This document shows positions 21,342 to 36,724 of a DNA stretch of 36,724 nucleotides, piece by piece. The first letter of the stretch is position 1. Each line of letters begins with the position of its first letter. The notes under the pieces are model-generated. The model ran no database searches and was not told the origin of the DNA. It worked only from the letters and a program-made list of their open reading frames with translations. Made by a program: the position numbers and the translations under genes. The stretch is from a virus. The DNA lies in the IMG/VR virus record IMGVR_UViG_3300009285_000809, positions 1 to 36,724 of that record; one strand, written 5' to 3'.

Positions 21342-22428
21342 TTTTTTCTAAATTAAAGTCTTTTTCTACCGTCTTCCTTCCTTCTTTCCCAAGTTTCTCC
21401 CTAAGCTCTGGGTGCTTCATCGCGTACTCAATCTTCTCATACCAATCATTCTTAGCGAATAACCCGTTCTTTCCTTCAATAATTGTTTCCTTGTAATGCC
21501 CCACGGGTGAGGCGATGACTAGGTTATTTCCAGCAGTCCAGTATTCAAGAATCCGCAGGTTCGACTTCGCCCTGTTATACATACTGTCGTGTATGGGGGA
21601 TAGGCAGACATCTGGTGAAAGGGAGTTTATGTACTCCCAATACTTGTCTGGATGAACCCACTTCATCTTGACGACACGTTTCTCGTAGGGAGTCCCTTCC
21701 AAAAGGTTCGGGAGGTAGTTGTACTGGTAAAAGGTAACATTCGGGTATTTCTCCATTATCCTTTTTATCGGTTCCTTAATGATTCTCATGTTGTCCATGT
21801 GTCCTGCGGAGGTTGACCACATTACCCTGATGTCCTTGTGGGGCTTATACGGTTTTGGTCTCCTCTTAGAAACATCGAGTGAATTCGGGCAAATGAACGT
21901 CGGGGAGAAGTTTTTGTAGAAGTTTTGTAGAAATGGAGTTGTCACGATATACCCGTCAAACACACCGAGGCTTCTCCGCGCTAGAGTTACGGGGTCAGAG
22001 GGGTCAGTGAACATATCCTGCTTCTTTTCGTAATAGCTGAGAAGTCCTGGGTTCAATGGAGGGACATCCCACACATAATCATCTGTTTCTTGTATAATCG
22101 GGATGTTAAACTGTTCCTTCAGTGCGATGGCGAGTGCGAACATCTGCGGAGAGTCCATCCTCTGAAACACAACGGCATCAATCTTGTTCTCAAACATCTT
22201 GGAGAAAAGCCGTGTGTTCTTAACTATCCCATCTTTACCAGCCTCGAAGTCGTACCAAGCATCATTCTCTTTTGGAACCTTCTGGTTCAGCATGGTCACT
22301 TGGAATGGGTTTGCGTATACCTTCGCAAGCCCCAGCTTCTTTATCATCTGTGCTGGGTTGTGGATACGGTAATATCCCGTTCCATCTTGATAGGTTGCAA
22401 AGAAGAATATATTAAGCATTGAGGACAT
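21235..22428 (-). CDS. GT4-like glycosyltransferase
   Basis: The 397-aa protein has a Rossmann-type N-terminal half (MLNIFFFATYQDGTGYYRIHNP) and a GT-B-type C-terminal half. The end contains NLRILEYWTAGNNLVIASPVGHYKETIIEGKNGLFA, the acceptor/donor-site region of Glycos_transf_1 (with E in LEYW), and EKLGKEGRKTVEKDFNLEK. It would add a sugar from a nucleotide donor. The gene overlaps the 3' end of the epimerase gene by 17 nt, so the two are likely coupled. Sugar donor unknown. A second ATG three codons later is a possible start. Confidence 0.8.
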   Translation of the reverse strand: MSSMLNIFFFATYQDGTGYYRIHNPAQMIKKLGLAKVYANPFQVTMLNQKVPKENDAWYDFEAGKDGIVKNTRLFSKMFENKIDAVVFQRMDSPQMFALAIALKEQFNIPIIQETDDYVWDVPPLNPGLLSYYEKKQDMFTDPSDPVTLARRSLGVFDGYIVTTPFLQNFYKNFSPTFICPNSLDVSKRRPKPYKPHKDIRVMWSTSAGHMDNMRIIKEPIKRIMEKYPNVTFYQYNYLPNLLEGTPYEKRVVKMKWVHPDKYWEYINSLSPDVCLSPIHDSMYNRAKSNLRILEYWTAGNNLVIASPVGHYKETIIEGKNGLFAKNDWYEKIEYAMKHPELREKLGKEGRKTVEKDFNLEKNARLWIDAVKSVISSYKPYKQAPDKYVAPENREGS

Positions 22429-23401
22429 TTTTAATAATCTCGTACGGGTTAATCTTCACAAAGTCTGGTGCATCGTTATGGATGTATTTTTCCTTAGCCG
22501 CCTCAGCTATTCTTTGCGCTATTGGCGGGACTAGGGTTCCCCAGCCTTTTTCCATTATTTCTTCCCACTCGGTAACTGACCTGATTATTAGGGAGTGCTT
22601 TAGAAGCCAAAACGCCTCTCTCTGAACGCCCCCAGAGTCCGTTATAACAATCCTGCAATTATGTATCTTACTTAAAGTCACGCTTCTTGGTTGGGGCTTC
22701 ACGACCTCTATGTTCTTTGGAATTTTAATTCTATTCTTCTTTAGCACTCTGCGTGTATGCGGGTGGAGGGGAAGGTAAATCCTTTCGTCAATCATCCCGA
22801 AGCCCTCGAATATCTCTTTTAACTTTTCTGGTTGCAGGTTCTCTCTCCTGTGTATTGAAGCGAAGATGTATGTTCCAGAATCCTTTGTCTTTTTTAGGGG
22901 TAGAAACCTATTGAGCGACCAGAACAGCGAATCACCCGAATAGTAGGAGTTCTCACCCATGCCTTCGTTTAAGAGGTTATTCATCGCGTGGTGAGTCGGA
23001 GCGAACCTCCACGAAGCTAGGACATCGGCTACAATCCTATTTGTTTCTTCTGGCATTGACTTGTCGTGGCTTCTAAGCCCTGCCTCAACGTGGGCGAGTG
23101 GTATGTTCTCCATAGACGAAGCTACTGCCCCAGCGAAGGTTGAATAGGTGTCCCCGTAAACAACGGCAACGTCTGGTTTCTCTTTCCGAAGAACCTCCCT
23201 TGTTCTATCTATCATTCTTCCTATTTCATCTGAAGTGCAACCAAGATTGTACTTAATCTTCAGCTTCATCTCTTTCAAGTGCTGACCGAACATATCCTCG
23301 TCTGCGTGCTGACCAGTATTTATAAAGACGTCAGACAGTGTTGGGTCAATCTTGAAGACTTGAGGTCTGCTCCCTATAACACTCAGGATTTTACGCTTCA
23401 T
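22412..23401 (-). CDS. wecB: UDP-N-acetylglucosamine 2-epimerase (non-hydrolysing)
   Basis: At 329 aa it is slightly shorter than typical (about 370). Family motifs are clear: MKRKILSVIGSRPQVFKI at the N-terminus, VYGDTYSTFAGAVASSMENIPLAHVEAGLRS, PEETNRIVAD, and ITDSGGVQREAFWL. The enzyme interconverts UDP-GlcNAc and UDP-ManNAc, supplying ManNAc for surface polysaccharides. A strong AGGAGG lies 4 nt before the ATG at 23401. Genes for glycosyltransferases follow and precede it. Confidence 0.9.
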   Translation of the reverse strand: MKRKILSVIGSRPQVFKIDPTLSDVFINTGQHADEDMFGQHLKEMKLKIKYNLGCTSDEIGRMIDRTREVLRKEKPDVAVVYGDTYSTFAGAVASSMENIPLAHVEAGLRSHDKSMPEETNRIVADVLASWRFAPTHHAMNNLLNEGMGENSYYSGDSLFWSLNRFLPLKKTKDSGTYIFASIHRRENLQPEKLKEIFEGFGMIDERIYLPLHPHTRRVLKKNRIKIPKNIEVVKPQPRSVTLSKIHNCRIVITDSGGVQREAFWLLKHSLIIRSVTEWEEIMEKGWGTLVPPIAQRIAEAAKEKYIHNDAPDFVKINPYEIIKNVLNA

Positions 23402-23409
23402 ATATCCTC

Positions 23410-23643
23410 CTAAAAATTATATTCAGCCACTATTTTTTTCATCCATACCCAAAATGCTTTTGCACTCTTTGGTTCTTTACTTAGTTTATCTACAAATTCA
23501 GTGGTGAACCATATAGAAAGATGTTTTTGTCTTTTACCGCGTAAACCAGAAATAGTAAATCGAACAACTCCTTTTTCTAATTTTCTATCATTCATTACCG
23601 CAACATCAAATTTGTTCTCAACTATAATGTGTTTGTGTATCAT
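23410..23643 (-). CDS. Unknown 77-aa protein
   Basis: ATG at 23643 is chosen because GGAGG lies 4 nt upstream (GGAGGATATATG), the same ribosome site as the epimerase gene. A longer frame exists but its N-terminus shadows the gene upstream. The product starts MIHKHIIVENKFDVAVMNDRK and is basic with a beta-rich centre (GVVRFTISGLRGKRQKHLSI). No family recognised. Confidence 0.6.
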   Translation of the reverse strand: MIHKHIIVENKFDVAVMNDRKLEKGVVRFTISGLRGKRQKHLSIWFTTEFVDKLSKEPKSAKAFWVWMKKIVAEYNF

Positions 23644-23659
23644 ATATCCTCCAATTAAA

Positions 23660-23845
23660 CTAGAATATCTTAAACTTACTTCCGAGTATTTCACTCATTC
23701 TCTTTCCCCTTCCGACAGTCATAGTTTTTTTTCTCGCCTCGGCTGACTGTTTTCTAAGTTTCTTTTCATTCTGGTCTCTAGGGTCGTTTTTATTTATCCC
23801 TGGTCTCATTAGGATATTTTTGCTGTTTACCTTAAACCTCTTCAT
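23660..23845 (-). CDS. Unknown 61-aa highly basic protein
   Basis: The product starts MKRFKVNSKNILMRPGINKN and is rich in Lys and Arg (KKLRKQSAEARKKTMTVGRGKR). It could bind nucleic acid or be a short linker protein. No Shine-Dalgarno site is seen and no family is recognised. It lies between the GT2 gene and the 77-aa gene. Confidence 0.45.
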   Translation of the reverse strand: MKRFKVNSKNILMRPGINKNDPRDQNEKKLRKQSAEARKKTMTVGRGKRMSEILGSKFKIF

Positions 23846-23859
23846 GATGTTTAATTGTG

Positions 23860-24606
23860 TTATTTTTTTCTAAATCCTTTACCAAACTTATGACCTTTCT
23901 TTACAAGTCCCTCTTTAATGAGGTAATTCTGAATCCACCGTATAGACTCCTGACGCTTTCCTGAAACCTCATTCTTGTAGCTTAAGGAAATTGACGGGTA
24001 TCTGTAGTAGTCATAGAGTCCTATGTCTAGGGCGGTGTACTTAGCCCCCATGCGGTGCAGTAGTATGTGGTGAAACCAGTCCCACATTCCACTTGCTTCT
24101 TTGGGGAACTTTATCTTTAGGAGGGTTTCCCGTTTCGCAAAGATAGCTCCGTTTATGTATTGCTCGGTATAGATTCTGTTGGGAGTCCAAGGCTTTGGTG
24201 GTCGGTACTGTCTTGATATAATTCTCACTCTAGGGTCTGGGTGGGATGCTAGGACGTAAATCCCATGATACAGCACATCTGCATCTCCAATGGCTTTCAG
24301 GCACTTCTCTGCCCTGTCTGGGGCTGATATGTCGTCTGAATCGTGGAACATGACATACTTCCCCTCGGCTCGCTCTATGCCAGTCCTGTAGGCGTTGACC
24401 ACCCCTCCGTTGGTTGGTAGGTACACTCGCTTGAGCCGTTTCTCGGTGAGCATGGAAACCAATTCCCTTGAATGGTCTGTAGAGGCATCGTCTACGACAA
24501 TCAATTCCCATTCACTTATAGACTGGTCGAATATACTCTGGATTGACTGGCTGATTGTTCCCTCTTTATTAAAGCAAGGCACCACAACCGAAACCAATGG
24601 TTTCAT
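23860..24606 (-). CDS. GT2-family glycosyltransferase
   Basis: This 248-aa GT-A enzyme has the standard N-terminus VSVVVPCFNKEGTISQSIQSI, the nucleotide-binding WELIVVDDASTD, NGGVVNAYRTGIERAEGKYVMFHDSDD (DSD metal site near residue 90), and a C-terminal helical part. It would transfer a sugar onto a glycan or lipid carrier. The ATG overlaps the stop of the three-domain protein (ATGA at 24603-24606). Acceptor unknown. Confidence 0.85.
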   Translation of the reverse strand: MKPLVSVVVPCFNKEGTISQSIQSIFDQSISEWELIVVDDASTDHSRELVSMLTEKRLKRVYLPTNGGVVNAYRTGIERAEGKYVMFHDSDDISAPDRAEKCLKAIGDADVLYHGIYVLASHPDPRVRIISRQYRPPKPWTPNRIYTEQYINGAIFAKRETLLKIKFPKEASGMWDWFHHILLHRMGAKYTALDIGLYDYYRYPSISLSYKNEVSGKRQESIRWIQNYLIKEGLVKKGHKFGKGFRKK

Positions 24607-26816
24607 ATCAGGTATGCAACCTTATCGCCCATACTCCACTGTTTCTTAACCTTGAATAGCTCTTTGTAGTCGTGCGAAAAGCAATAATCACCACTTGGTA
24701 CAAACTTCTTCGGTTCAATGAGGAGAATCTGTTTTGCTACTCCTTTAAGGGCATCAACCGCCTTATGTATATTCTCTGGAGGGACATGCTCTAAGCAGGT
24801 GTAACTAAATGCTAGGTCATACTTTCTTGGTACGGATACTTCCTCTACTGATGAAACGAAGAATTGTTTGTCTTGAAACTTCTTTTTGCAGATTTCTACC
24901 AGTCTTTTGGAGATGTCGAATCCGATATACTCCTTACCCTCAAAGTAGGGAACGAAGCGACCATTTCCACATCCTACGTCAATGACAGAATTGAACTTAG
25001 TGCCAGCTAGAATCTCCTTCAGCTTTCCTTCTTTAACCTTATCAACGCCAGCTTGTACGTCCCATGAGTCGGAACGACGCTCCCAGTATCTTTTCTCGTC
25101 GTAGTTTATGTATTGGTTTATAGTCTTTCTGTACTTTTCCGTGTCAAGCCACTTCCTGTAATACTCAGCCCCCTCTTCGTTAAGGGGTTTCTTTAGTGTC
25201 TTGTAGATTGCCTCTTTCAACTCCTTGAGAAGTTCCTTTATTGAGATGTTCGGATTTCTCCGCATGAAGTCAATCAGGTCGAAGTGGTCTGCGTGTGGCA
25301 TCTCAACTGAGGTGAGGGCGTTCCTGCCAGCACCAATCCATTCAGCTACCGAGATAGGAAGCCCATCGTGTTTCGTAATCCTAACGATTGCGTTTGTTTC
25401 TTTTATTATATCTCCGACTCCATTCGTAACACCCCATATTTTGTAGTTCTTTGCTTTCGGGGGCTTCGCCTGAAACCAGTTACCGAAGAAGTGGAAGTCC
25501 ACGTCTGGCATCATCTGAACTAACCCCTTAGCCGTTTCACTTCCGACAAAGAAGTCATGGAAGTAGAACAGCTCATTTCCTTTAGGGAGATAGACAGCTA
25601 CTGCTTTCTTTTTGGGGAGTGGTACTATGTCATACCATTTTCTAGGAGGAAATGGGACTACATCTGCCTTTATCCCGAACGCCGCGAGTTCTTTCTGCGT
25701 AGCTTCAAACTCCGCGAATACCCCGTCGCACTTATTATTTAGGAAGTCCTTGACGATACCTATCTGTTCAATGGTGAGTTTTTGGAGAGTCAATATGTCC
25801 GAACCGATAAAGTGTACCAGTTTCTTTACTGGCGAAAGCGGGTAACTTCCGTTCCACTGCCCCTTAGCTTTGGCAATCTCCGAGTTCACCCAATACTGGT
25901 GTGAACTGAATAATGACTTAATATCCTCGAAGTTGTATATGAAGAATCCTATAACATAGACCGCCTTGTAGTCGTGAGGTTTGAATGGGGGAAAGTCCTT
26001 GTAGTCTGCGTCCAGAACCTTAGCAACCGACTGTCCATGAAATGACGCAAATGGTGCCGCTACGCAGAGTTTAGGATATGGTATCTTGTGAAGCGACTGA
26101 ATCTGTTTAACTCTAGCAAGCCAATTCCTACTGGAATCATCCGACAGTCCGTCCTTATGGGGCATGGTCGTTTCAAAGTTCTTGCATTGAGCAAGGGGCA
26201 TGAACTTCCCCTTAGCCCCGTAATCTAAGACAACCGAGAGCCAAAAGTCCCAATCCTGTAGAGATTTAACCGATGGGTTCCACAACCCGTCCTTTAGTCC
26301 AACCTTCTTTGCCGCACCCCAGTATGCTTCCTTCTGTATAGGGAAAGAGCCGTCTATGTAGTTTGAAGTCTTTAAGTCCCTGATGTCGAATTCCTGAGAG
26401 TGGTATGGCATTACGACTCTCCCACCCTCCCATGAGGGAAGGTTTATTTCGTTGTCTACAAAGTAGTACCCTCCGTATATGAAAGCGCAGTCTGGGTTAT
26501 CCCTCAACTGCTCCATCCATATCGTGAGGACACCAGGAAATATGAAGGAATCTGCTGGAAGGAACGAATATACGTCCCCCGTCGCTACCTTCGCACCCTC
26601 GTTACGAGCGACACAAGCGCCTCTATTACCTTTGAAATAAATGACTTTAATGTCTTTGTTTTTTTCATACTTCTTTAGAATTTTTTTAGTGTTGTCTTTC
26701 GAGCCGTCATCAATAAGAACCAGCTCCTTATTTTCGTAGTCTTGGTCTAAAAATGACTTGATATGCCCCTCAAGCGTTGCCCCGTCGTTGTAACACGGTG
26801 TGATAACTGAAATCAT
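24603..26816 (-). CDS. Three-domain glycosyltransferase-methyltransferase
   Basis: From ATG at 26816 (GGAGG 5 nt upstream) the product is 737 aa. Domain 1 (about 1-220) is GT2: MISVITPCYNDGATLEGHIKS, ELVLIDDGSKD, GNRGACVARNEGAKVATGDV. Domain 2 (about 240-520) looks GT-B: KLVHFIGSDILTLQKLT, DVDFHFFGNW, ITKHDGLPISVAEWIGAGRN. Domain 3 (about 580-735) is a class I SAM methyltransferase: FNSVIDVGCGNGRFVPYF, YIGFDISKRL, YDLAFSYTCLEHVPPENI. It could build and cap a glycan by methylation in one chain. An ATG four codons earlier is less likely because GGAGG would lie inside the coding region. Confidence 0.8.
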   Translation of the reverse strand: MISVITPCYNDGATLEGHIKSFLDQDYENKELVLIDDGSKDNTKKILKKYEKNKDIKVIYFKGNRGACVARNEGAKVATGDVYSFLPADSFIFPGVLTIWMEQLRDNPDCAFIYGGYYFVDNEINLPSWEGGRVVMPYHSQEFDIRDLKTSNYIDGSFPIQKEAYWGAAKKVGLKDGLWNPSVKSLQDWDFWLSVVLDYGAKGKFMPLAQCKNFETTMPHKDGLSDDSSRNWLARVKQIQSLHKIPYPKLCVAAPFASFHGQSVAKVLDADYKDFPPFKPHDYKAVYVIGFFIYNFEDIKSLFSSHQYWVNSEIAKAKGQWNGSYPLSPVKKLVHFIGSDILTLQKLTIEQIGIVKDFLNNKCDGVFAEFEATQKELAAFGIKADVVPFPPRKWYDIVPLPKKKAVAVYLPKGNELFYFHDFFVGSETAKGLVQMMPDVDFHFFGNWFQAKPPKAKNYKIWGVTNGVGDIIKETNAIVRITKHDGLPISVAEWIGAGRNALTSVEMPHADHFDLIDFMRRNPNISIKELLKELKEAIYKTLKKPLNEEGAEYYRKWLDTEKYRKTINQYINYDEKRYWERRSDSWDVQAGVDKVKEGKLKEILAGTKFNSVIDVGCGNGRFVPYFEGKEYIGFDISKRLVEICKKKFQDKQFFVSSVEEVSVPRKYDLAFSYTCLEHVPPENIHKAVDALKGVAKQILLIEPKKFVPSGDYCFSHDYKELFKVKKQWSMGDKVAYLI

Positions 26817-26817
26817 T

Positions 26818-27423
26818 TTATCCTCCATCTGGTTTTTTGAAAATTGGTAAATTACTTAAATCTGGGTATTCGTCTTTCGGAACTGCTGAATTTTTTTTCG
26901 GTAGAAATGAAAGCCTTGTCAGTCCTTCGGCGGAATCTCTCGGACTCATGTAACAGTGATAACCAAGGATTATTTCTTTATCGTCCTTAGGCAACACATT
27001 TTCACTTCTTCCGTCAAATCTTGCTTTGCGTAGCCACTGGTCAGCATCTTGGTTGTCATGGAGTATCGCTCCCCCCTGACCTATTTGCAATGTCTTAGAC
27101 CAATGAAAAGATACACAAATGAACTGACCTGGCATATACATACCAGACGTGAAAAGTTTTGCTGAGTCCCAAATCGGGTATGGTTTCAACTGGTATCTTC
27201 CAGACCAAGCCCAATTCTCGAACTTTACTCGTCCTCCAGAGTGGATAATGGAAAGAGGCACTCCAACATAAGTGTGTTTTGGTATAGTTACTTCTTCTAC
27301 TTTATTATATGCACATGCCAGCAATAACGCGTTTGTGCAGGAGTTCACGACTACCGCGTAACTCGCCCCAGTGTACTTGCAGAGTTCTTCTTCAAACCAT
27401 CTTGTTACGTCGTGCGGATTCAT
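26818..27423 (-). CDS. Shortened DegT/DnrJ/EryC1-family aminotransferase
   Basis: The protein is 201 aa, about half the usual 370-400. It keeps the N-terminal fold (FEEELCKYTGASYAVVVNSCTNALLLA), the D-x-A-x-x-x-x-G type loop (WDSAKLFTSG, D86), and the PLP lysine site SFHWSKTLQIGQGGAIL (K110). The segment between the first strands and D86 is strongly reduced, and the C-terminal domain is nearly absent. Normal members transfer amino groups to nucleotide sugars as dimers. This one may be a minimal enzyme or a sugar-binding relative. The stop codon touches the next gene and the start overlaps the SDR gene by 4 nt. Confidence 0.7.
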   Translation of the reverse strand: MNPHDVTRWFEEELCKYTGASYAVVVNSCTNALLLACAYNKVEEVTIPKHTYVGVPLSIIHSGGRVKFENWAWSGRYQLKPYPIWDSAKLFTSGMYMPGQFICVSFHWSKTLQIGQGGAILHDNQDADQWLRKARFDGRSENVLPKDDKEIILGYHCYMSPRDSAEGLTRLSFLPKKNSAVPKDEYPDLSNLPIFKKPDGG

Positions 27424-28322
27424 GTGAGTGGGAGTGCCTTTCTCCAGTCAATGTATTCTTTTAACTCTTTTTCAAAATCTGTAGTTGGTTTGAAACCCAT
27501 GAGCGTAGCCTTTAATATGTCCGCACACAATCTTCTTACTTCCCCTGGTCGTGGCTCAATGTGGGTGGGTTCTGGACAACCAGTGTACTTCCTGACAAGT
27601 TCAGCTATCTCGTTGACTGAAACAGTTTTCCCTGAACCTATGTTCAATGGCTCCCCTGGTCTTCCTTTTTCTGCAATTATCTTGTACCCCTGTATGGCAT
27701 CTGACACCGACATATAATCCCTAAGCTGTTCACCATCCCCGAATATGACAGGGGGTTTCCCTCTTAATGCACGGTCTACGAATATCGCTATCACACCCCC
27801 ATAACTGTCGAATCTCTGCCACTTACCGAATGTATTGAAGTTTCTCAAAATCTTTACGTCTGTCCCGAAAGTATCGTGGTAAGCCTTTGCGAGTCGGTCT
27901 GCCGAGAGCTTGGAAGCTGCGTATATTGATTGGGCGTCGAGCGAGTGGAGTTCACTCATCTTGTCCATCTGAGAACTCCCATACACCTCACTTGTTGACG
28001 CGAGAATCATCGGCTTCCCGTATTTCCTACACGCCTCTAAGAGATTTAGTGTTCCGTTTACGTTTATGTCATACGTTTCCTGTATGTGTTCATTCCCGTA
28101 GTCTATGTTGATTTGAGCTGCGCAGGCGTAAATTTCATCTACTTGACTAACTAGAAAATCAACCATTTTTTTATCTCGTATATCACCCTCAACCGTATTG
28201 CGCATTTTCCTCGTACTCCACCTTCCGTTGTCTAATCCAATAACCTCCCACCCATCTTTCTCCATTTGTTCCTGAAGGTGACTTCCTATAAACCCTTCGT
28301 TACCAGTAATCAAACAGCGCAT
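27420..28322 (-). CDS. NAD-dependent SDR epimerase/dehydratase
   Basis: The 300-aa extended SDR has the Rossmann motif TGNEGFIGSH (residues 6-15), the active-site S/T in ASTSEVYG and the YxxxK pair in YAASK (Y134, K138). RNFNTFGKWQRFDSYGGVIAIFVDRALRGKPP and FGDGEQLRDYMSVSDA match UDP-glucose 4-epimerase-like and dTDP-sugar enzymes. It modifies nucleotide sugars for the neighbouring transferases. The start lies in the 3' end of the HNH gene (13-nt overlap). Confidence 0.85.
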   Translation of the reverse strand: MRCLITGNEGFIGSHLQEQMEKDGWEVIGLDNGRWSTRKMRNTVEGDIRDKKMVDFLVSQVDEIYACAAQINIDYGNEHIQETYDINVNGTLNLLEACRKYGKPMILASTSEVYGSSQMDKMSELHSLDAQSIYAASKLSADRLAKAYHDTFGTDVKILRNFNTFGKWQRFDSYGGVIAIFVDRALRGKPPVIFGDGEQLRDYMSVSDAIQGYKIIAEKGRPGEPLNIGSGKTVSVNEIAELVRKYTGCPEPTHIEPRPGEVRRLCADILKATLMGFKPTTDFEKELKEYIDWRKALPLT

Positions 28323-28861
28323 ACTTTTTTTACCCTATATCCGTAAGTATCTGTTTTTCTATGACAATCAAGACAAAGTGTCCTTCCGTTATCTATACTT
28401 AGCCCTAGTGACTTAAAGTATGCATAGGGCTTAATGTGATGGGCGTTTAGTTTTCCACCAACTCGCCCACATAAAACGCAGGTATAATTATCTCTTTTAA
28501 AAACAAACTTTCTCCAATCATTGTATACAGTTGACTTTCTAAAGTTCCTTGCTTCTAGAGTTTTGCCTCCCTGCCAGTTCCAATGATTTTCACCCCGCCA
28601 ACCGCAAACCATTCCCTTATTCCATGCAACTTGTAGTCCCCTCCTGCCCTTATTCCATGGTCTCTGTCCATCTAACCATATTGGTTTTCCATGGTTCATG
28701 CTCATTTTCTTTTTTGTTTCTAGCGTGACATGTGTTCCAACTTTTGACCCCCAGTAACAAACCTTAGAACAATAAAAAGAGTTCCCATCTCTCCCATTTA
28801 ATCTATGTGGAAAAATAAGAAATACTTTTTTACATTTTTTACAAACCACTTCAACTCTCAT
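28310..28861 (-). CDS. NUMOD3/HNH homing-type endonuclease
   Basis: From ATG at 28861 the product is 183 aa. It begins with a zinc finger (VVCKKCKKVF ... FYCSKVCYW), then NUMOD3-like DNA-binding repeats (PWNKGRRG, AWNKGM, GENHWNWQGGKT), then an HNH nuclease (YTCVLCGRVGGKLNAHHIKPY ... DNGRTLCLDCH). This layout is typical of phage homing endonucleases. It lies just after the capsid gene, whose intron is 576 nt away, and may promote the intron's spread. A longer frame from 28909 is less likely because its first 16 residues have no family similarity. Confidence 0.85.
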   Translation of the reverse strand: MRVEVVCKKCKKVFLIFPHRLNGRDGNSFYCSKVCYWGSKVGTHVTLETKKKMSMNHGKPIWLDGQRPWNKGRRGLQVAWNKGMVCGWRGENHWNWQGGKTLEARNFRKSTVYNDWRKFVFKRDNYTCVLCGRVGGKLNAHHIKPYAYFKSLGLSIDNGRTLCLDCHRKTDTYGYRVKKVCAV

Positions 28862-28877
28862 AAATTGTTCTGGAGGA

Positions 28878-28919
28878 GGGAGAAATAATTCTCCCCCCAG
28901 CCATAGCAATCAATGCTAT
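28878..28919 (-). terminator. Two stem-loops after the capsid gene
   Basis: GGGAGAA (28878-28884) pairs with TTCTCCC (28889-28895) over a 4-nt loop. ATAGCA (28903-28908) pairs with TGCTAT (28914-28919). They lie in the 71-nt gap between capsid stop and HNH start. No long T-run follows, so this may be a weak terminator, an RNA-stabilising 3' end, or a processing site. Confidence 0.5.
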
Positions 28920-28932
28920 CTATCTTCTCTCT

Positions 28933-30279
28933 TTACCAGTTCGTGATGTAATTGTTGTCGCTGTTGTACAAGATAGCAGTAGCAAGAGTCAACTGTGCCG
29001 AAGTTCCACAACCTGGGAACAGGTTGGTGAAGCCTTGGTTGATTGGAGCGGACGGCGCTGTGCAGGCCGTTCCAATAGAGTTGTTGACTTGCGTACCATC
29101 AGAATTCCAGACGTAAACAATTGCACTCGGATTCAGAACCTTCGAAGCGAGATTCGCTTTCCATGCATACACATCCGTAAGATTGTTTGGGTCATCTTTA
29201 GATGCGCCTGTATTTTTGAAGGTTTGAACTCCGCCATCAAGCTCTGTTACGGCAAAGGCATCTCTGCCGAAGATAGCCATACCGAGCGAACGCCAGCATG
29301 AGCCAGTGGCCGTCGAAATGCTATCGCCTGATAGTGTTGAACCAGGTACAATCGGAACATAGGTTGACTTCATCAAACGGCAATTAAACACCGTTCCGAC
29401 TTCGTAGTCGTACATCCGTTCAGGTTGGCTGTAAGCCTATATGTTGTGTATCAACATTTCTGTTGTACCTCTATGTCGCCATAGAGTTCAGACTTTATCT
29501 TCACCTCTTGCGAGGGCTTTCCGTTAAGTCGTTACACCTTCCCCATAGGGATTGGCTCGGTATTGTCTCATTGAGAGTTCCACCGAATTTGAAAAGATTT
29601 TACTTATCCATTGCTGAATAAGGGGCCACTTACGTTTAGCCCATGAAGCGAATGTAGTATCCGAGTAGACATCCTGTAGTTGGTTCGGGTGAACGATACC
29701 AACGTAGTTTTGTCCGTCGAAGTTTGGTGCATTATTTGCCTGAAGACGAGTAACCGCTTTCCGAATGTCTGATAATGCCAGACGAGCCGCACCGCCAGAA
29801 CAGATAACCAGACCCCAGTGACCCTCTTTAGCACCTGTATCGTGCTTGACAAAGTGGGTAATACCAGTATCGGCTAAAATGCTCTGTTGGATATATTGCT
29901 CGACTGTTTGCGCTGCCTGTTCGGCCATCAACTGAGTCGCATAAGCGTCAGTGTCGAATACCGTAACGAGGCGAGCGTAATCAGACACGGTGACAGAATC
30001 ACCGATTTGCTGAACCAACGCTGAAACTTGGTTTGCTGAAATAGTTTTCACCGAGCAGATAGGTACGCCCTGTGACAGGTTATACCCAAGTGCTAAGGCT
30101 ACTTTTCTATTAAAGACTATAGCGTTACCAGTCCGTTCTGACAGAGGTTTCTTTGTTGCGAATGTGTAATACCGAAAGGTCGGTCTCATCCATTCCAACA
30201 TGATTTTCTGAAAGTTCGAGGTAACACCACTTGACAAGCCAGCGGTAGTTGAGAGAGAAGGTGTTCCTGAGAAAGCCAT
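28933..30279 (-). CDS. N4-gp56-family major capsid protein, split by an intron
   Basis: Exon 1 is 29638-30279 (214 codons) and exon 2 is 28933-29436 (167 codons plus stop), joining to 381 aa. Exon 1 has FQKIMLEWMRPTFRYYTFATKKPLSE, VALALGYNLSQGVPI, VSALVQQIGDSVTVSDYARL, and YVGIVHPNQLQDVYSDTTF, all typical of the N4-gp56 capsid family. Exon 2 has PERMYDYEVGTVFNCRLMKST, the usual E-x-G turn after the P-domain, then the C-terminal domain. Read without splicing, exon 1 continues into 37 residues of intron-encoded sequence and stops at 29524. The splice is in phase 0 between two Ala codons. AAGGA lies 7 nt before the ATG. It follows the scaffold gene. Confidence 0.85.
29437..29637 (-). ncRNA. Group I self-splicing intron (201 nt) in the capsid gene
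   Basis: Numbering from the intron 5' end (29637 = 1). P1: exon GGGCU pairs with GGCCC (11-15), with a U-G pair at the splice site. P10: GUAAGU (5-10) pairs with exon 2 GCUUAC. P2: CUUAU/AUAAG (16-20, 31-35). P3: CUUUUC/GGAAAG (42-47, 116-121). P4: CGGU/ACCG (53-56, 77-80). P5: UCUC/GAGA. P6: CCC/GGG (88-90, 95-97). P7: GACU/AGUC (108-111, 144-147). P8: CCUC-GCAA-GAGG. P9: CUCUAUG-GCGA-CAUAGAG. P9.1: CAACA-GAAA-UGUUG. The last base is G. No ORF lies inside. Confidence 0.88.
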
Positions 30280-30306
30280 TGAACATTCCTTCTATTCCTC
30301 CTGAAT

Positions 30307-31086
30307 TTATTTTGGTCTTTTTACAGTGCGTTGTCGTGAGATTTCTTCGAACATTTTGTACTCAGGCCCAAGTGCTGCAAACACCTCAGCCAGTTCCTCA
30401 CTAGACTTTGCGTTTTTAATTGCATCATCTACCGTGGTTGGCTTGTAACCTGATGGCCTAGACGACTCAACAATAGCTTTTTGGGCTTGCTGGGTCGCTT
30501 CGTTCGCTCTCTGAACGCCCTGATTGAACGACGTTCTCTCTACAGTTGGGTAAGTAGCCAACTTAAAGGCATCTTCCATCGAGATTTTCTTTTCAGACTT
30601 GATTCTTGCAACGTCTTTAGCAACAGACACGAACTTATCGCCGTACTTGTTCACCATATCCTGAACTTCCAATTTCGCAATAGCGGGGGAGAGAAGTCTT
30701 GTGACCTCATCACTTAGTGCTGGTCTCATCTTTTCGATGATAGAACTAAGCTCCTCTGTTTGCGCCTTGGGTTCAGGTTGAGAAACATCTTCAGCTTTCT
30801 GCTCTGGCTGTACAAAGAGTTTTTCAAGCTCTGACCTTTCCATCTCGACTTTTGTGTTGTGCGACTGCAATTCTTGGTAGGCCTTCTCCAAGTCCTCTTG
30901 GGACTTAAACTTTCCAAGAATTAGTCCTGCTTCAGCACCCTCAGATTGTCCCTCGCGGGTCTGCGGTTGCTCGACGCCAGCGGCATCGTTTCGCGGGGTT
31001 TCACCGCTAGACGTGTCGGGCGTCTGGTTCGTTGCATCCGTTTGTCCTTGCGGGACGGTGGTAGCAACGTTTTCGACGTTATCCAT
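30307..31086 (-). CDS. Capsid scaffold protein
   Basis: The 259-aa product has an acidic, disordered N-terminus (TVPQGQTDATNQTPDTSSGE), a predicted coiled coil (QEDLEKAYQELQSHNTKVEMERSELEKL), a helical core and a basic C-terminal end (EEISRQRTVKRPK). This profile and its place just before the capsid gene mark a scaffold. The basic C-terminal tail usually binds the capsid protein. AAGGA lies 5 nt before the ATG. Confidence 0.75.
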   Translation of the reverse strand: MDNVENVATTVPQGQTDATNQTPDTSSGETPRNDAAGVEQPQTREGQSEGAEAGLILGKFKSQEDLEKAYQELQSHNTKVEMERSELEKLFVQPEQKAEDVSQPEPKAQTEELSSIIEKMRPALSDEVTRLLSPAIAKLEVQDMVNKYGDKFVSVAKDVARIKSEKKISMEDAFKLATYPTVERTSFNQGVQRANEATQQAQKAIVESSRPSGYKPTTVDDAIKNAKSSEELAEVFAALGPEYKMFEEISRQRTVKRPK

Positions 31087-31094
31087 ACGTTTCC

Positions 31095-31400
31095 TTATTC
31101 CTCCGTTGGTAATTCTTCTAATCTATTTTTTATTTCTGTTTTTCTATTTGTTGTTGATTCAAAGTGTTTCCTGATTGACCTAAGCACCCTAATCTGTTCC
31201 CTGATAATCGGCAATTGCTCGTTTGATGCGGTTTCCATTAGGTCAAGGAGAGTGTAAATCGGCTTGTCAACCACATTTTCTAGGAACATCTGGAAGTCAG
31301 GATTTCTTCCTAAGCGTTCGTAGACTTCTATCGAAAGACTCGCCTTATTTAGTTGTTCTCTCGCCAAGTCTACCTCTGTCTTTTTTGTCCCCCTAGGCAT
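31095..31400 (-). CDS. Unknown 101-aa helical protein between portal and scaffold
   Basis: The product (MPRGTKKTEVDLAREQLNKA ...) is almost wholly helical and charged, ending KTEIKNRLEELPTEE. Its location suggests a head-assembly accessory. It is separated from the portal gene stop by one base. No family recognised. Confidence 0.6.
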   Translation of the reverse strand: MPRGTKKTEVDLAREQLNKASLSIEVYERLGRNPDFQMFLENVVDKPIYTLLDLMETASNEQLPIIREQIRVLRSIRKHFESTTNRKTEIKNRLEELPTEE

Positions 31401-31401
31401 A

Positions 31402-33168
31402 CTAGACTGTTTGAGTTGTTAATGCTTCTTGAACTTCGGCGGCTTTTGCGGCTTCTTCCATTGATGCGGCTCTCATTCTTGAAGCCACTTCTTTCGGATG
31501 AGTCTTGATGTTCTCTTTCTTATCAAGAATCTGGGCAACGGCATCGGGCATGAGTTCTCCCTTGAGTTGGTAGTTGACGTTTGGTTGTTCTGGTGCTACG
31601 GGTTCTGGGGGTAAGATGTATTCTTCGACGTTCTTTCTTCCTGAGTGTTGCAAGATGTCGGCACCAAGTTTCGCTACATTGAAGTTAGGTACATTGACCA
31701 TTGTCTGCAAGAGCTGTATATCTTGGCTCATCTTCTGCATTTCATCCATGTAGTCAATCTCAACGTCTAGGTCGAAGTTTGACTTAATATCCTCTGGTTG
31801 AATCGGGATAAGGGCGGCTTCGCCGTTCTTTCCTACGACCCTTATTAACTGCTCTTGGGTCATAAATTGCTGGGATAGTTCTAGGAACTTTCTCCCAATC
31901 TTGATAAGACCCCTCTTTAGCTGTTGAATCTTTGAGTTGAATCTTTTATCGGCTTGGTTGATTGCTCCCTGCCACGCAGTCGCCGTTCTGTTTATTACCC
32001 CTCCCTGAGTACCACCCATAGGCGAGGTCAACGCACCAGAAAGCGGAGAGTTCGCACCAGTGATTCTCTCCATGTCTGATTTTATTATAGATTCTTCCGT
32101 AAATGCTTCTGCTGGTAGTGGCTGAGTATCACTTGGAATTAACCCGTCGGGTCTTGTAAGGTGGATAATCCCGCCAGGTCTTGAAACCAGTTCGTCCTCG
32201 AATTGTACGCCTCCAGCGACAATCTTCCACATCCGATTCAGGTTAATCTTCACATTATCCATCCTCTGATTCCGAATGTCATTCAACTCATTTTGGAGGG
32301 AAACTACTGGTTCGATTTCCCCAATGCCATAAAACTCATGGGGAACGATTGTGTCCCTGATGACCGTAAACGGATTCCAGTTCGTATAGGGATTTTTGTC
32401 GCATCTTAAAACTTCATTTCCAGCTAGGACGATGATATATGGCTCTCCCCTGAAGTCGCCCCAGTATTCCAGAACCCTATATCTCTGGCGTGAGGTGTCG
32501 GAAGAGTTGACTCCTATGAGCCCCTCCCTGTACATTCTCTCCTGGTTACTAGGAAGGTCGGAACTTTTCTGTGACTTCAGCCTCTCAATGACTTCCTTTT
32601 TGTAGTTCGGGTTCTGTTCTAGGTCTTCTATATCTCTTTCAAGTCGGTGGATTCCATACTTCATTTCTTCTGCGTTCCTAGCTTTCGGGTCTGGGAAGAA
32701 ATCAAAAATATCTACAACTTCTGGATTCGGCATACCGTCTTTCCAACTCGTCTTACAAACAGCAGTCCCGTAGATAAGGGCTTCTTTTACAAGTTCTTCT
32801 AAAATATCTTCCATGTTCGTCTTTGAGAACTGGAACTTGAGGAGGTCTGAATATGCCTCTGCGTTTCCCGTGTCCATACCCTCTACTGGAAGGGTGGTGA
32901 AGGTGCGTTGAGCCTGAGCTATTCTGGGAGCTACAGTTTCAACTATCTCGAAAGTTTTTGATATGAAAAGGTTTGACCGCCAAGGGAGCCTTCCCGATTC
33001 GAGTTCGCTCCTGTAGAGCCTGTAGTACTCCTGGAACCTTGTAAAAAACGGCTGTGTGTATTTCTCGGATACGTTAAAACGCTTGAGTACAAGCTCTTTT
33101 GCATCCTCTATTTTTTTTATGTCGCCTAACTTTTCCTTACCTGTATCCTCCGTATCTGTATATGCCAT
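31402..33168 (-). CDS. Portal protein
   Basis: The 588-aa protein sits between TerL and scaffold, where phages keep the portal. Motifs resemble P22-type podovirus portals: LKRFNVSEKYTQPFFTRFQEYYRLYRSE at the N-terminus, NPFTVIRDTIVPHEFYGIGEIEPVVSLQNELNDIRNQRMDNVKINLNRMW in the middle, then MERITGANSPLSGALTSPMGGTQGG and a long helical segment (ISQ..RFNSKIQQLKRGLIKIGRKFLELSQQF). It forms the dodecameric DNA channel at the vertex. The C-terminal region is a helical barrel-like extension rich in Glu and Ala. Confidence 0.85.
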   Translation of the reverse strand: MAYTDTEDTGKEKLGDIKKIEDAKELVLKRFNVSEKYTQPFFTRFQEYYRLYRSELESGRLPWRSNLFISKTFEIVETVAPRIAQAQRTFTTLPVEGMDTGNAEAYSDLLKFQFSKTNMEDILEELVKEALIYGTAVCKTSWKDGMPNPEVVDIFDFFPDPKARNAEEMKYGIHRLERDIEDLEQNPNYKKEVIERLKSQKSSDLPSNQERMYREGLIGVNSSDTSRQRYRVLEYWGDFRGEPYIIVLAGNEVLRCDKNPYTNWNPFTVIRDTIVPHEFYGIGEIEPVVSLQNELNDIRNQRMDNVKINLNRMWKIVAGGVQFEDELVSRPGGIIHLTRPDGLIPSDTQPLPAEAFTEESIIKSDMERITGANSPLSGALTSPMGGTQGGVINRTATAWQGAINQADKRFNSKIQQLKRGLIKIGRKFLELSQQFMTQEQLIRVVGKNGEAALIPIQPEDIKSNFDLDVEIDYMDEMQKMSQDIQLLQTMVNVPNFNVAKLGADILQHSGRKNVEEYILPPEPVAPEQPNVNYQLKGELMPDAVAQILDKKENIKTHPKEVASRMRAASMEEAAKAAEVQEALTTQTV

Positions 33169-33188
33169 AGTTTTTGGCTAATCTTAGC

Positions 33189-34541
33189 CTAATATCCAGT
33201 GTATTTATTGGGTTTATAATTTCCTAATGGGTTGTTTCTCATTGACCTCGTTACCGACATCTTCGGCGGTAGTTGCCATGTTGCCAGCATCAGGGATGTG
33301 ACTCCATCATCATGCTTGTCCGACGGTGCGCCATACTTGTAGCGTCCAGATTCAAGCCTCCTGTACCTGTAGTCCTTTAATTCATCAATCAGCCAGTCAA
33401 CTCTCGGAATCTTAACCTCATCCCTTGAAAGCATCTTGGAGAGGTTTCTCACCAAGAGCTGCTTATTCCCAGCAGAAGTGAACTTAATGGGGGTTATGGG
33501 GATTCCTCTTGTTGAGAGATGGTCGAAAATCGTATCTCCCATTCCAGTAGAGTCCATAACCATCTCTGGGCGACCCGCGTCGGTTGTCCATGTGTTCACG
33601 ATATTCTGCGCTCTCTCTAAGAGAAGTTCAATATCTATCTTATTCGTCCTGTAGACATACTTAAACCTCCAGTCAGTCATATCGAGAATCGCAAACACGG
33701 AAAAGTCTTCGCGGAAAGCTGGGTCGAAGCCTATTCTGTACCTGTGTCCTGACTCTGGAAAATCCCTAAACTCATCTACTACATTCTCATCTACCCTGTC
33801 AAAAACCATACCAGCGTTCTCAAGGAAGTCACATTCGTACTCCTGCGCGTAGAACTTCTCTGTCATCTCCGCCTTGGTTGACTCAAGGAAACCTAGAGAC
33901 AGGAGCGCATCACCTCTTGGGGTGTTCTCTGCAAAGTTAAGGGTTGGCTTTGTTGCGGGCAGTAACCATGACTTCCAGTCCTTAACCCCGTCCCTTCCCA
34001 TAGCGAAGACGTCGTAGAAGTGGTTTCTTCCGTCGGGCGTTCCTATGAATAACGCACCGCCGCCAGTTGAAGCCAACTCTGGCTGGATAATCTTCGGCCA
34101 CACATGGGGCTTCATAAAGGCGTATTCGTCTAGGAGGGCGTGATAGAGTCCAGGGCCTCTAAGACTATCTTCCTTGTCAGCTCCTTTTATGTTCACAATC
34201 ACCCTATTCCTTAACCGCATCTCCATCTGGGTCTCATTTGGCTTCTTAAGGAGCATGGAGGGTGGGACAATGTCTTTAAGCAAGTCCCAAGCTATGTCCT
34301 TTGATTGCTTGTATGTCGGGCCTATGTAGGTAAAACGAGGAACTCGGATTGCCCCTTTAACGGCATCTTGGCACTTATAGGCAAGCATAAAGAGATACAT
34401 AAGAGCCATGACCGTCTTTCCTGCTTTTCTGTGGGCTACGACTACCTTGTATTTAGAAGAATCCTCCGCAACGCCTTTGTTGGGGTTTCCTATTATCTGC
34501 TCCTGCCAGTCTCTTGGGGAAAATTCCTCCGCTAAACTCAT
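33189..34541 (-). CDS. terL: Terminase large subunit
   Basis: The 450-aa packaging motor has an ATPase with Walker A AHRKAGKT (residues 36-43) and Walker B LLDE (136-139), then IGTPDGRNHFYD, a motif III-like strand. The RNase H-like nuclease follows: IGFDPAFREDFSVFAILD with D273, VMDSTGMGD with D330, and HDDG at 410-413. Together they cut and pump DNA into the procapsid. The start overlaps the 63-aa gene by 4 nt. Confidence 0.95.
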   Translation of the reverse strand: MSLAEEFSPRDWQEQIIGNPNKGVAEDSSKYKVVVAHRKAGKTVMALMYLFMLAYKCQDAVKGAIRVPRFTYIGPTYKQSKDIAWDLLKDIVPPSMLLKKPNETQMEMRLRNRVIVNIKGADKEDSLRGPGLYHALLDEYAFMKPHVWPKIIQPELASTGGGALFIGTPDGRNHFYDVFAMGRDGVKDWKSWLLPATKPTLNFAENTPRGDALLSLGFLESTKAEMTEKFYAQEYECDFLENAGMVFDRVDENVVDEFRDFPESGHRYRIGFDPAFREDFSVFAILDMTDWRFKYVYRTNKIDIELLLERAQNIVNTWTTDAGRPEMVMDSTGMGDTIFDHLSTRGIPITPIKFTSAGNKQLLVRNLSKMLSRDEVKIPRVDWLIDELKDYRYRRLESGRYKYGAPSDKHDDGVTSLMLATWQLPPKMSVTRSMRNNPLGNYKPNKYTGY

Positions 34542-34729
34542 GAAAATGTGAAATGATTCCTAATAAACCAAGAAAGCCTATTTGAATCCACTGTCTTGTA
34601 GTTCAATGACTGTATGTATTCCCCTAGGGCATAAAACGGCTTCCACCACGATTTAATCTCCCTGCGGTAATATGTGGAGTTTCCAGACTTCTCCCTGTAA
34701 TAGTTGAACCTAAGGTTGTATTTATTCAT
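34538..34729 (-). CDS. Unknown 63-aa protein between TerS and TerL
   Basis: The product starts MNKYNLRFNYYREKSGNSTYY and is rich in Tyr, Arg and Trp. It overlaps the terminase small-subunit gene by 8 nt and the large-subunit gene by 4 nt. The tight overlaps on both sides suggest a real, co-translated packaging accessory. No family recognised. Confidence 0.55.
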   Translation of the reverse strand: MNKYNLRFNYYREKSGNSTYYRREIKSWWKPFYALGEYIQSLNYKTVDSNRLSWFIRNHFTFS

Positions 34730-35138
34730 CTACTACCTCTCCCTCGATTATCTTTGCCTCAGGAAGCTCTTTAGGCTTCTCGAACCAAAGGTTTATAGTC
34801 TTGTTATCTGGCTCTCTCCTCTCCCCGTACTTCTCCCTCCAGTTGTTTTTTAAGTAGAAAATCTTAGACACAGGCGCACCCTTCGGGTCTAGGGCTGAAT
34901 CCAGCAGTGTACTCTCCACTTTCTCTGAAATAAGCCTATTTACCTCCTGCAGGTCTGCTTCGAAGTCTGGGTTCTCTTTTCTCCACCCATCTACCGTAGA
35001 CCGCATAATCTTCAATTCCTTGCAGGTAGTCGTGTAAGCCCCATTATTCTTAACGTAAGCCTCAAGGAACCCAGCGTAATCTCTTTGCTGGAAGTTATTG
35101 ATACTCTTGCCTATCTTGTCTTTAGGTACATTTGGCAT
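34722..35138 (-). CDS. terS: Terminase small subunit
   Basis: The 138-aa product has an N-terminal HTH (FLEAYVKNNGAYTTTCKELKIMRSTVDGWRKENPDFEADL), a central oligomerisation helix (EVNRLISEKVESTLLDSALD) and an acidic tail. It resembles HTH-type TerS proteins that bind the packaging site and load TerL. AGGA lies 4 nt before the ATG. Imperfect direct repeats at 35216-35274 upstream may be its binding site. Confidence 0.8.
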   Translation of the reverse strand: MPNVPKDKIGKSINNFQQRDYAGFLEAYVKNNGAYTTTCKELKIMRSTVDGWRKENPDFEADLQEVNRLISEKVESTLLDSALDPKGAPVSKIFYLKNNWREKYGERREPDNKTINLWFEKPKELPEAKIIEGEVVDE

Positions 35139-35215
35139 TTTTCCTAAGGAATTCGTAAATCAGCTCTTGACATTTTGAAAGTTTCTCGACCCATTTATGG
35201 TGTAATATAGGGTGC

Positions 35216-35274
35216 CTTTGTGATTATTTCTGAGAGGTGGTCGTCTCCTTTGTGATACTTCCTAAGAGGAGGTC
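35216..35274. repeat. Two imperfect 27-bp direct repeats upstream of terS
   Basis: Copy 1 (35216-35242) and copy 2 (35248-35274) both start CTTTGTGAT and end GAGG-GGTC-like; 22 of 27 positions agree and the spacing is 32 bp. They lie in the gap of about 265 nt between the HNH gene and terS, which holds no convincing gene apart from a possible 28-aa frame at 35122-35208. A packaging-recognition role is possible. Confidence 0.6.
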
Positions 35275-35403
35275 AAAGATACTAACACTCATACACCCCC
35301 ACCCCCACATGGTATAGGGGGTCTCGTCTCCATATGCTTTCAATACCCATATTCTACACATATACTCCGCTAACCTTAGAGAAATCCTCTATTTGTTAGG
35401 GTC

Positions 35404-35673
35404 TTACAATGTATAGCACGAGCATGTACCACAGTGTGGTGTACGCATCAGGTGTGCTTCTCCGCTTGCCTCTGTCTTAGATTGATGACAACTATGGCAA
35501 AGTAGCTGTAAATCATTGAGTGTTACGTCGTCACCGTATCTCTTATGGTCTATGTCATAGGATTCACTGGACTGATGACACTCCTCACATGTATCACCGC
35601 GAGTGAATACTAACGCCCAATACACATAAGGACGCATTTTAGGGCTTATTCTGTATTTTATTGCGTTTGACAT
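35404..35673 (-). CDS. HNH endonuclease next to the terminase
   Basis: The 89-aa product holds a compact HNH domain: CEECHQ, YDIDHKRYGDDVTLNDLQLLCHSCHQ with two CxxC pairs, DH, N and CH. HNH proteins located beside TerS/TerL often help cut DNA at cos sites during packaging. The C-terminus (HLMRTPHCGTCSCYTL) has four more Cys/His residues. A role in end processing is inferred from location. Confidence 0.8.
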   Translation of the reverse strand: MSNAIKYRISPKMRPYVYWALVFTRGDTCEECHQSSESYDIDHKRYGDDVTLNDLQLLCHSCHQSKTEASGEAHLMRTPHCGTCSCYTL

Positions 35674-35861
35674 ACCTTATTCTTGACTAATACTGATATA
35701 GGTCTTTTAGGGGATAGTATGAGGTGAATGGAATAATCAAACCTCCACCAGTGCCACTCTCCAAGCATACTAGCTACATACTCACTATCTACGATCCTAT
35801 ATACAATTGTTCAGCCCTTCTCCATGCACTCTCCCTATTTGACAGTTTATATATGAGTAGT

Positions 35862-36017
35862 TTACTTTACATTATTCGCTTCTTCTGTTGCTATCTGTTG
35901 CTGTATCTTATTGGCTTGCTGGACTGCTGATTCGTAGACTTGTTTCGCCCGTGCAATCTGTTTATTGGCTTCGTACCATGCCTTGTAGAGGTCTGGAGTG
36001 TTCTTGTCGTCGCTCAT
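35862..36017 (-). CDS. Unknown 51-aa helical protein
   Basis: ATG at 36017 overlaps the stop of the upstream 36-aa frame (ATGA at 36014-36017). The product, starting MSDDKNTPDLYKAWYEANKQ, is charged and helical with a Gln-rich end. No Shine-Dalgarno site is seen, so expression would depend on coupling. No family recognised. The remaining bases from 35674 to 35861 hold nothing I can support. Confidence 0.5.
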   Translation of the reverse strand: MSDDKNTPDLYKAWYEANKQIARAKQVYESAVQQANKIQQQIATEEANNVK

Positions 36018-36124
36018 AGTCTGTTCATTAGTGATTCAATTATATTTCGTATTTTTACTAGTAACATGAACAGGGCATGTCTTGGACCCGTGCTGATTGG
36101 AATATAGTTATTGTCGTACTTCAT
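36014..36124 (-). CDS. Possible 36-aa leader protein
   Basis: ATG at 36124, product beginning MKYDNNYIPISTGPRHALFM and ending ESLMNRL. It overlaps the 51-aa gene by ATGA. A candidate leftward promoter (TTGCAA 36155-36160, TTATAC as minus strand of 36131-36136, 18-bp spacer) would start transcription at or near this ATG. A longer frame exists to 36244 but its extra part is not convincing. Confidence 0.35.
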   Translation of the reverse strand: MKYDNNYIPISTGPRHALFMLLVKIRNIIESLMNRL

Positions 36125-36164
36125 GGGTGTGTATAAGTACATTGTATTCAATGATTGCAAGGGC

Positions 36165-36193
36165 TTGACAGTATGTGTGGGTAGGTGTATGCT
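36165..36193 (+). promoter_or_regulatory. Strong sigma70-type promoter, rightward
   Basis: TTGACA (36165-36170, perfect -35) and TATGCT (36188-36193) are separated by exactly 17 bp. Transcription would start near 36200 and run rightward, opposite to all other genes in the window. It faces a weaker candidate promoter for leftward transcription, making this the divergent control region. Confidence 0.7.
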
Positions 36194-36199
36194 TACCTT

Positions 36200-36455
36200 A
36201 TCACTAATTGAGAGGCGGACATGGCAAGGCGCAACAGTATGCAATTTTCCTTAACCGACCTGTCCTCTCTCTCGGTGAATGACCTACCAAGCCGTGAACG
36301 CCAGCACTGAAACCTTGTGAGGCGTACCGGACAGGTGGGATAGCAGCAGAACATTGACAATCTAACGTATAGCGTCTGGCCTACCGGTTAGGGTAGGTTA
36401 GACCAACGGGATTGAATGAGTAAACTTTTTCATTTTCCCGCTTTCAATGTTTTTC
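36200..36455 (+). ncRNA. Candidate structured RNA from the rightward promoter
   Basis: Stems seen: ACCTGTCC (36258-36265) with GGACAGGT (36329-36336), and a 12-bp stem 36374-36385 with 36392-36403 (GTCTGGCCTACC against GGTAGGTTAGAC, two G-U pairs, 6-nt loop). Then comes a stem CGGGA/TCCCG around 36406-36440, and ATTGAA with TTCAAT followed by GTTTTT, a weak terminator-like end. No known RNA family is recognised. Ends are estimates. Confidence 0.4.
36221..36310 (+). CDS. Possible 29-aa peptide behind the rightward promoter
   Basis: ATG 36221, stop TGA 36308-36310. The product begins MARRNSMQFSLTDLSSLSVN. A purine-rich GAGGCGGAC precedes the ATG, with suitable spacing. The region also folds into RNA stems (36258-36265 with 36329-36336), so it may be part of a structured RNA and not a gene. 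Confidence 0.3.
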   Translation: MARRNSMQFSLTDLSSLSVNDLPSRERQH

Positions 36456-36538
36456 CAAACGTCGGGTCGTTCGTTCTTGATAGCCAGTTTTTGCTTTATT
36501 ATTTCGTCCTTTACCTGGTGAAACGAGGCGGACTGTAA
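36416..36538 (+). CDS. Possible 40-aa protein, doubtful
   Basis: ATG 36416, stop TAA 36536. The product starts MSKLFHFPAFNVFPNVGSFV and is hydrophobic in the centre. Its 3' end overlaps the next frame. The start lies within the structured stretch, so it may be spurious. Confidence 0.25.
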   Translation: MSKLFHFPAFNVFPNVGSFVLDSQFLLYYFVLYLVKRGGL

Positions 36539-36724
36539 CTACGGTCCAACACCACGTCGAGATAAGGCGAAAAGTAAAACAATACTAAAAGCAAGAAAAA
36601 TACTAGCAGACTTGACCCGCAACACTGGCGGGGAAGGGCTTACTGCTTACCACCAAGGCGACCCACGCGGTTGCTCACTCTATGTAGTGATACCAGAAGA
36701 CTGCTCACAAGAGCGATACGATAA
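36522..36724 (+). CDS. Conserved phage protein with QGDPRGC motif, 3' end cut off
   Basis: The frame is open from after a TGA (36519-36521) to the right edge. It contains KARKILADLTRNTGGEGL then AYHQGDPRGCSLYVV, a motif I know from short conserved phage proteins of unknown function. No ATG or GTG lies between the TGA and this motif; a TTG occurs at the Leu of ADLTRN. The real start could be non-standard. It is the first clear rightward gene. Confidence 0.55.

Follow-up and report, generated by a model that had tools for sequence, protein, structure and literature searches.

Results

Organization of the Capsid Locus

The window (the whole 36,724-nt stretch of viral DNA that was analyzed) carries on its minus strand a major capsid gene of the N4-gp56 family in two pieces, which are separated by a 201-nt sequence containing no open reading frame and followed by a free-standing HNH homing-type endonuclease gene and an epimerase gene (Table 1). 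The epimerase belongs to a set of sugar-modification genes at 24603-28322, after the capsid gene, which also includes an aminotransferase-like gene and a GtrB-like glycosyltransferase joined to a methyltransferase-like region; epimerase and aminotransferase-like genes stand at the corresponding place after the capsid gene in two more distant relatives (L107 and L108). A small HNH-like open reading frame of 89 aa was also observed upstream of the terminase genes (35404-35673), with a score of 20.8 bits against the Pfam HNH cut-off of 21.4 bits.

Table 1. Features of the interrupted capsid locus, in coordinates of the window.
Feature	Position	Strand	Basis
Exon 1, N4-gp56-family major capsid protein, residues 1-214	29638..30279	-	TIGR04387 and phrog_1357 similarity stops at residues 213-214
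Group I intron, 201 nt, no ORF, omega-G end at 29437	29437..29637	-	RF00028, helices, exact absence in sister allele
P1 exon strand GGGCU, conserved U at 5' splice site, pairs with GGCCC at 29627-29623	29638..29642	-	Pairing, U.G at splice site
P10 guide GUAAGU, pairs with exon-2 GCUUAC at 29436-29431	29628..29633	-	6/6 pairs
P2, 8 bp, GCAA loop	29603..29622	-	Helix pairing
P3 outer arms, 29596-29591 and 29522-29517, enclosing P4, P5 and P6	29517..29596	-	Pairing; two-sided changes at P3-P6 positions in 11 related introns
P7 arms, 29530-29526 and 29495-29491, guanosine site, enclosing P8 (29515-29504, GCAA loop)	29491..29530	-	Pairing; Rfam consensus match
P9 (29486-29469, GCGA loop) and P9.1 (29465-29452, GAAA loop)	29452..29486	-	Helix pairing
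Exon 2, capsid residues 215-381 and stop	28933..29436	-	phrog_1357 resumes at profile 243-343; same protein in sister (L002/L003)
Footprint of differences from sister: 29646, 29645, 29644 and 29638 (exon 1), 29419 and 29416 (exon 2)	29416..29646	-	Base-by-base comparison
HNH homing-type endonuclease gene, free-standing, flanked by capsid and epimerase genes; candidate mobilizing enzyme	28310..28861	-	PF01844, E 9e-8; HNH PHROGs

The Interrupting Sequence

A Rfam scan of the whole window returned a single match, to the group I intron model RF00028 (full model 1-253, at 29648-29469 of the minus strand), with 79.7 bits (E 7.4e-19) against a gathering score of 50 bits. All 62 pairs checked in P1, P2, P3, P4, P5, P6/6a, P7, P8, P9, P9.1 and P10 were standard, the region folded 4.1 standard deviations more stably than its dinucleotide shuffles (none of 200 equaled it), and alignment with 11 related phage introns revealed pair-preserving two-sided changes at 21 of the 31 consensus pairs. 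Helix pairing and the comparison with related introns showed that the core helices P3-P8 and the guanosine site of P7 are present, and the ends of the intron display a U.G pair in P1 at the end of exon 1, a terminal intron G and P10, full pairing to which is expected for 0.4% of random hexamers. With respect to the group I subgroups (such as IA and IC, told apart by peripheral helices like P7.1/P7.2), the core is closest to that of phage introns with an extra stretch between P7 and P3, which the window intron lacks. We are practically certain that the insert is a group I intron.

An earlier sequence-only reading had placed the intron at these same coordinates, exact to the base, and its helices from P1 to P9.1 together with P10 all proved to be fully paired; it was also right that the intron contains no ORF and that the group I covariance model would match the minus strand. 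The GNRA loops that it listed (GCAA, GCGA and GAAA) are present, but the list had omitted the second GCAA loop, on P8. Its description of the intron as near the minimal size needs correcting: small group I introns are abundant in phages, and those without an ORF commonly have a length like these 201 nt (mean of about 206 nt in Jug phages; PMC12363816).

The Predicted Spliced Capsid Protein

Exon 1 comprises 214 codons and exon 2 comprises 167 codons and the stop, and the two join in phase 0 to a stop-free frame of 381 aa. Both exons match phrog_1357 (major head protein), the match of exon 1 reaching profile position 233 and that of exon 2 beginning at 243. The spliced protein scored 107.7 bits on TIGR04387 (N4-gp56 family major capsid protein; curated cut-off 60 bits) with a match over residues 12-323, in agreement with the N4-gp56-type product that had been proposed, while the unspliced reading scored 62 bits and its match halted at residue 213. 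Alignment of twelve phage records was gap-free over the exon junction, one residue beyond which the aligned set has an invariant Tyr. The sequence-only reading would have been contradicted by conservation, in related capsid proteins, of the 37 residues that follow Ala214 when the RNA is read unspliced; these residues are missing from the homologues. A profile search with the capsid protein retrieved N4-like capsids in PDB (E 5e-21), and the top PDB matches of a low-confidence AlphaFold model (mean pLDDT 52) were again N4-like capsids (E 4e-14), so that the profile search and this low-confidence model both assign the protein an HK97-type fold.

An Intron-Free Sister Allele

Searching IMG/VR with the spliced protein revealed one close relative, the contig IMGVR_UViG_3300025087_000932 (L002/L003). 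There the capsid gene runs without interruption and its product matches the spliced protein at all 381 residues, which independently supports both splice sites as originally proposed, and Rfam found no group I match in the contig. The two contigs are base-identical over 29647-36142 and 26822-29415 of the window, the latter identity running from 22 nt downstream of the insertion site through the HNH gene. Over about 9.1 kb, the sole differences are the intron and six synonymous bases, the outermost of which lie 9 nt upstream and 21 nt downstream of the insertion site. In the window and the sister, respectively, these are TCA and AGC (29646-29644; both Ser), GCT and GCG (29638; both Ala), GAA and GAG (29419; both Glu), and CGG and CGT (29416; both Arg).

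If point differences are taken as independent, the probability that six random differences over 9.1 kb would all lie within those 31 exon nt is about 1.5e-15; the comparison concerns one pair of alleles, and thus a sample of one. Such clustering is not expected of new point mutations, and the change from AGC to TCA or the reverse, which alters all three bases of a Ser codon, points to imported rather than mutated sequence. Exon 1 of the sister ends in GGGCG, and this G at position -1 would leave P1 without its U.G pair at the splice site; the window flank has the T that is needed. Beyond 36142 (36142-36724 of the window) the sister diverges: one patch there is 87% identical, and the sister has about 450 nt more than the window, which marks a recombination boundary. 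The two contigs are therefore separate sequences, as opposed to a duplicate deposit of a single assembly.

More Distant Relatives and Search for a Donor

The site is also free of the intron in L107, L108 and L109 (portals 62-70% and capsids 53-66% identical), and about 35 further capsid ORFs adjoining portal homologues were all single frames. In L107, the site reads GGGCT followed directly by GCTTAT, with no intron, indicating that intron-compatible sites exist in this phage group. The codons of these three relatives are too diverged to polarize the six flank bases. The HNH gene is present in the window and in the sister and absent from L107, L108 and L109, where the epimerase gene directly follows the capsid gene; it is thus an insertion relative to these three, and it starts about 0.58 kb from the intron insertion site. 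In Stenotrophomonas phage StenR_269 (L008:1047-1496, OR838459.1), an annotated intron homing endonuclease lies directly upstream of an N4-type capsid gene that is itself uninterrupted.

A scan with four close capsids detected no further intron carriers among close relatives, and a search of viral contigs with the intron core pattern detected no donor. The sister was the only match to a degenerate exon pattern, and a nucleotide search of isolated phages with 22000-36724 of the window gave no match. One candidate among the genome contigs (L016) was rejected as a 37-residue chance match inside an unrelated protein of 1171 aa.

Introns in Other Capsid Genes

Capsid-gene group I introns are already known from LittleE and Tuc2009, the latter as cited in the LittleE report (PMC3706429). 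In LittleE, a Cluster J mycobacteriophage, splicing was demonstrated by RT-PCR and by N-terminal sequencing of the capsid protein (PMC3706429). As in the window, a probable group I intron of the major capsid gene was recognized there against intron-free relatives, but it is of about 819 bp and carries a homing-endonuclease ORF on the opposite strand, and the available portion of that report describes no near-identical sister with a flank footprint (PMC3706429).

Two marine podovirus capsid genes that are split in public annotation were also found. The uncultured phage Deep1-GF2-KM23-C739 (L024; KT997847.1, 1146-2035) resembles the window in its split capsid gene and compact P7-P3 joiner and differs in its capsid family, which is T7-type (phrog_267); RF00028 matches it twice (78.0 and 76.9 bits; 181 nt), where capsid fragments end, and neither match is annotated as an intron. 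In Pelagibacter phage HTVC120P (L022:982-2156, MH598807.1), the interruption is probably also an intron, judging from blastn similarity confined to the core; Rfam returned no match at E 0.001.

Introns from nine IMG/VR contigs (L163, L165 and L168-L174) share with the window a near-identical P4-P7 core and an upstream frame encoding a major head protein, whereas they possess the extra P7-P3 stretch and follow frames of other capsid families (phrog_267 or phrog_1328). In several of the phrog_1328 contigs, the intron apparently occupies the same site. Introns with the same core also adjoin portal genes (L162 and L167) and a DNA polymerase gene (L164 and L166). The huge Jug phages likewise have ORF-less group I introns of closely similar mean length and mostly stand-alone homing endonucleases, but their examples lie in terL, nrdD and DNA polymerase genes of Bacteroides/Phocaeicola phages; metatranscriptomes support the splicing of 37 of 76 of these introns (PMC12363816).

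Discussion

The data presented here strongly support a mobile group I intron, without an ORF and predicted to be self-splicing, that separates codons 214 and 215 of the capsid gene and probably entered this lineage recently. According to established group I chemistry, P1 would present the U of GGGCU so that an external G can attack just behind it; the released exon 1 would then attack behind the omega-G, which P10 aligns, and ligation of the exons would give the message for the 381-aa shell protein, presumably also in vivo. It had been suggested that the intron makes virion production dependent on the ribozyme. This is sound insofar as the unspliced RNA has an in-frame stop, while a regulatory role finds no support in anything seen here.

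When homing in phages is initiated by an endonuclease, co-conversion of flanking exon is its recognized mark (PMC2988022, PMC3984707). The confinement of the six differences to the flanks of the intron points to homing at the DNA level with co-conversion; as a simple account, reverse splicing with subsequent recombination of the cDNA was set aside, because the exon bases would then have stayed as they were. A natural intron-free allele with co-converted flanks is what a mobile intron should leave, and a recent gain by homing is the likely origin of the window allele. An allele without the intron would have been cut by an endonuclease, either the adjacent HNH protein or one from the donor phage, and repaired on the template of a diverged capsid gene that had the intron. 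The intron would thereby have been copied in along with about 10-30 nt of flanking donor exon to either side, and this flank would also have supplied the T at position -1 that the P1 of the intron needs. The footprint alone gives no direction of transfer. Since the intron is absent from L107, L108, L109 and the other relatives, the intron-free state is most simply ancestral, and from these relatives we infer that the intron was gained.

As a refinement of homing rather than an exclusive rival to it, the neighboring HNH endonuclease may tentatively be considered the enzyme that cuts intron-free capsid alleles at or near the site and mobilizes the ORF-less intron in trans. The gene lies close to the insertion site and is inserted relative to the three more distant relatives, and there is precedent for a group I intron that lacks an ORF and has a free-standing gene for a homing endonuclease close by: F-CphI mobilizes the cyanophage psbA intron in trans, a process known as collaborative homing, which is also found in T3 and T7-like phages (PMC3984707, PMC10448857). 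In such a pair, the free-standing endonuclease would be expected to be absent from the intron-free recipient, whereas here the intron-free sister carries the identical HNH gene, and none of the 20 HNH-relative loci searched had a group I intron nearby. The HNH enzyme thus cannot simply cut every intron-free allele; either the site of the sister is resistant or another enzyme is responsible.

The presence of the HNH gene in an intron-free phage, where a sensitive intron-free site should be cut, also bears on the opposite direction of change, in which the intron was ancestral to both sisters and the lineage of the sister lost it with its flanks when a diverged phage without the intron contributed a short conversion tract. 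Such a loss could even have been selected, if the synonymous changes made the site resistant to the resident HNH enzyme. The footprint is symmetric, so that removal by conversion would leave the same trace, and the codon states of L107-L109 do not polarize the six sites. We nevertheless consider loss unlikely, because with all other relatives intron-free it needs a gain followed by a loss, and because the G at position -1 of the sister removes the splice-site U.G pair and its flanks are unlike former intron flanks. An arms race at the capsid gene, in which the resident HNH enzyme cuts susceptible alleles and lineages survive either by the intron or by an imported synonymous block that confers resistance, is more speculative still.

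That assembly joined an intron of another phage into the contig is scarcely credible: the contigs are metagenomic and the six mismatches cluster at the junctions, but an artefact is not expected to give a ribozyme with matching P1 and P10 in exact phase and flank differences that are only synonymous. Equally improbable is a capsid gene truly split into two proteins, or used in its 251-aa unspliced form, with the insert as a remnant past splicing, since an ATG at 29415 does start a second frame of 160 aa, but the homologues are single uninterrupted proteins, the catalytic helices are all intact and the spliced product is the protein of the functional sister; on the evidence of the empty-site allele, this split gene was rejected, as was a coding insertion.

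Returning to recent gain by homing, what is new relative to the capsid introns described in the available portion of PMC3706429 is the near-perfect allele pair. The sisters represent a natural before-and-after experiment, with about 9.1 kb otherwise identical and a conversion tract bounded within tens of bases, which makes short-tract co-conversion in wild phages measurable, and the two known alleles allow the mobilizing endonuclease to be sought by comparing their cleavage. The intron also adds to the evidence assembled above that capsid genes of several families host group I introns. Gene callers report intron-split capsids as two broken genes, and surveys that use the capsid as a marker will therefore miss or shorten them. 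If the arms race were real, capsid alleles would record two routes past a resident HNH endonuclease, by the intron or by a resistant site.
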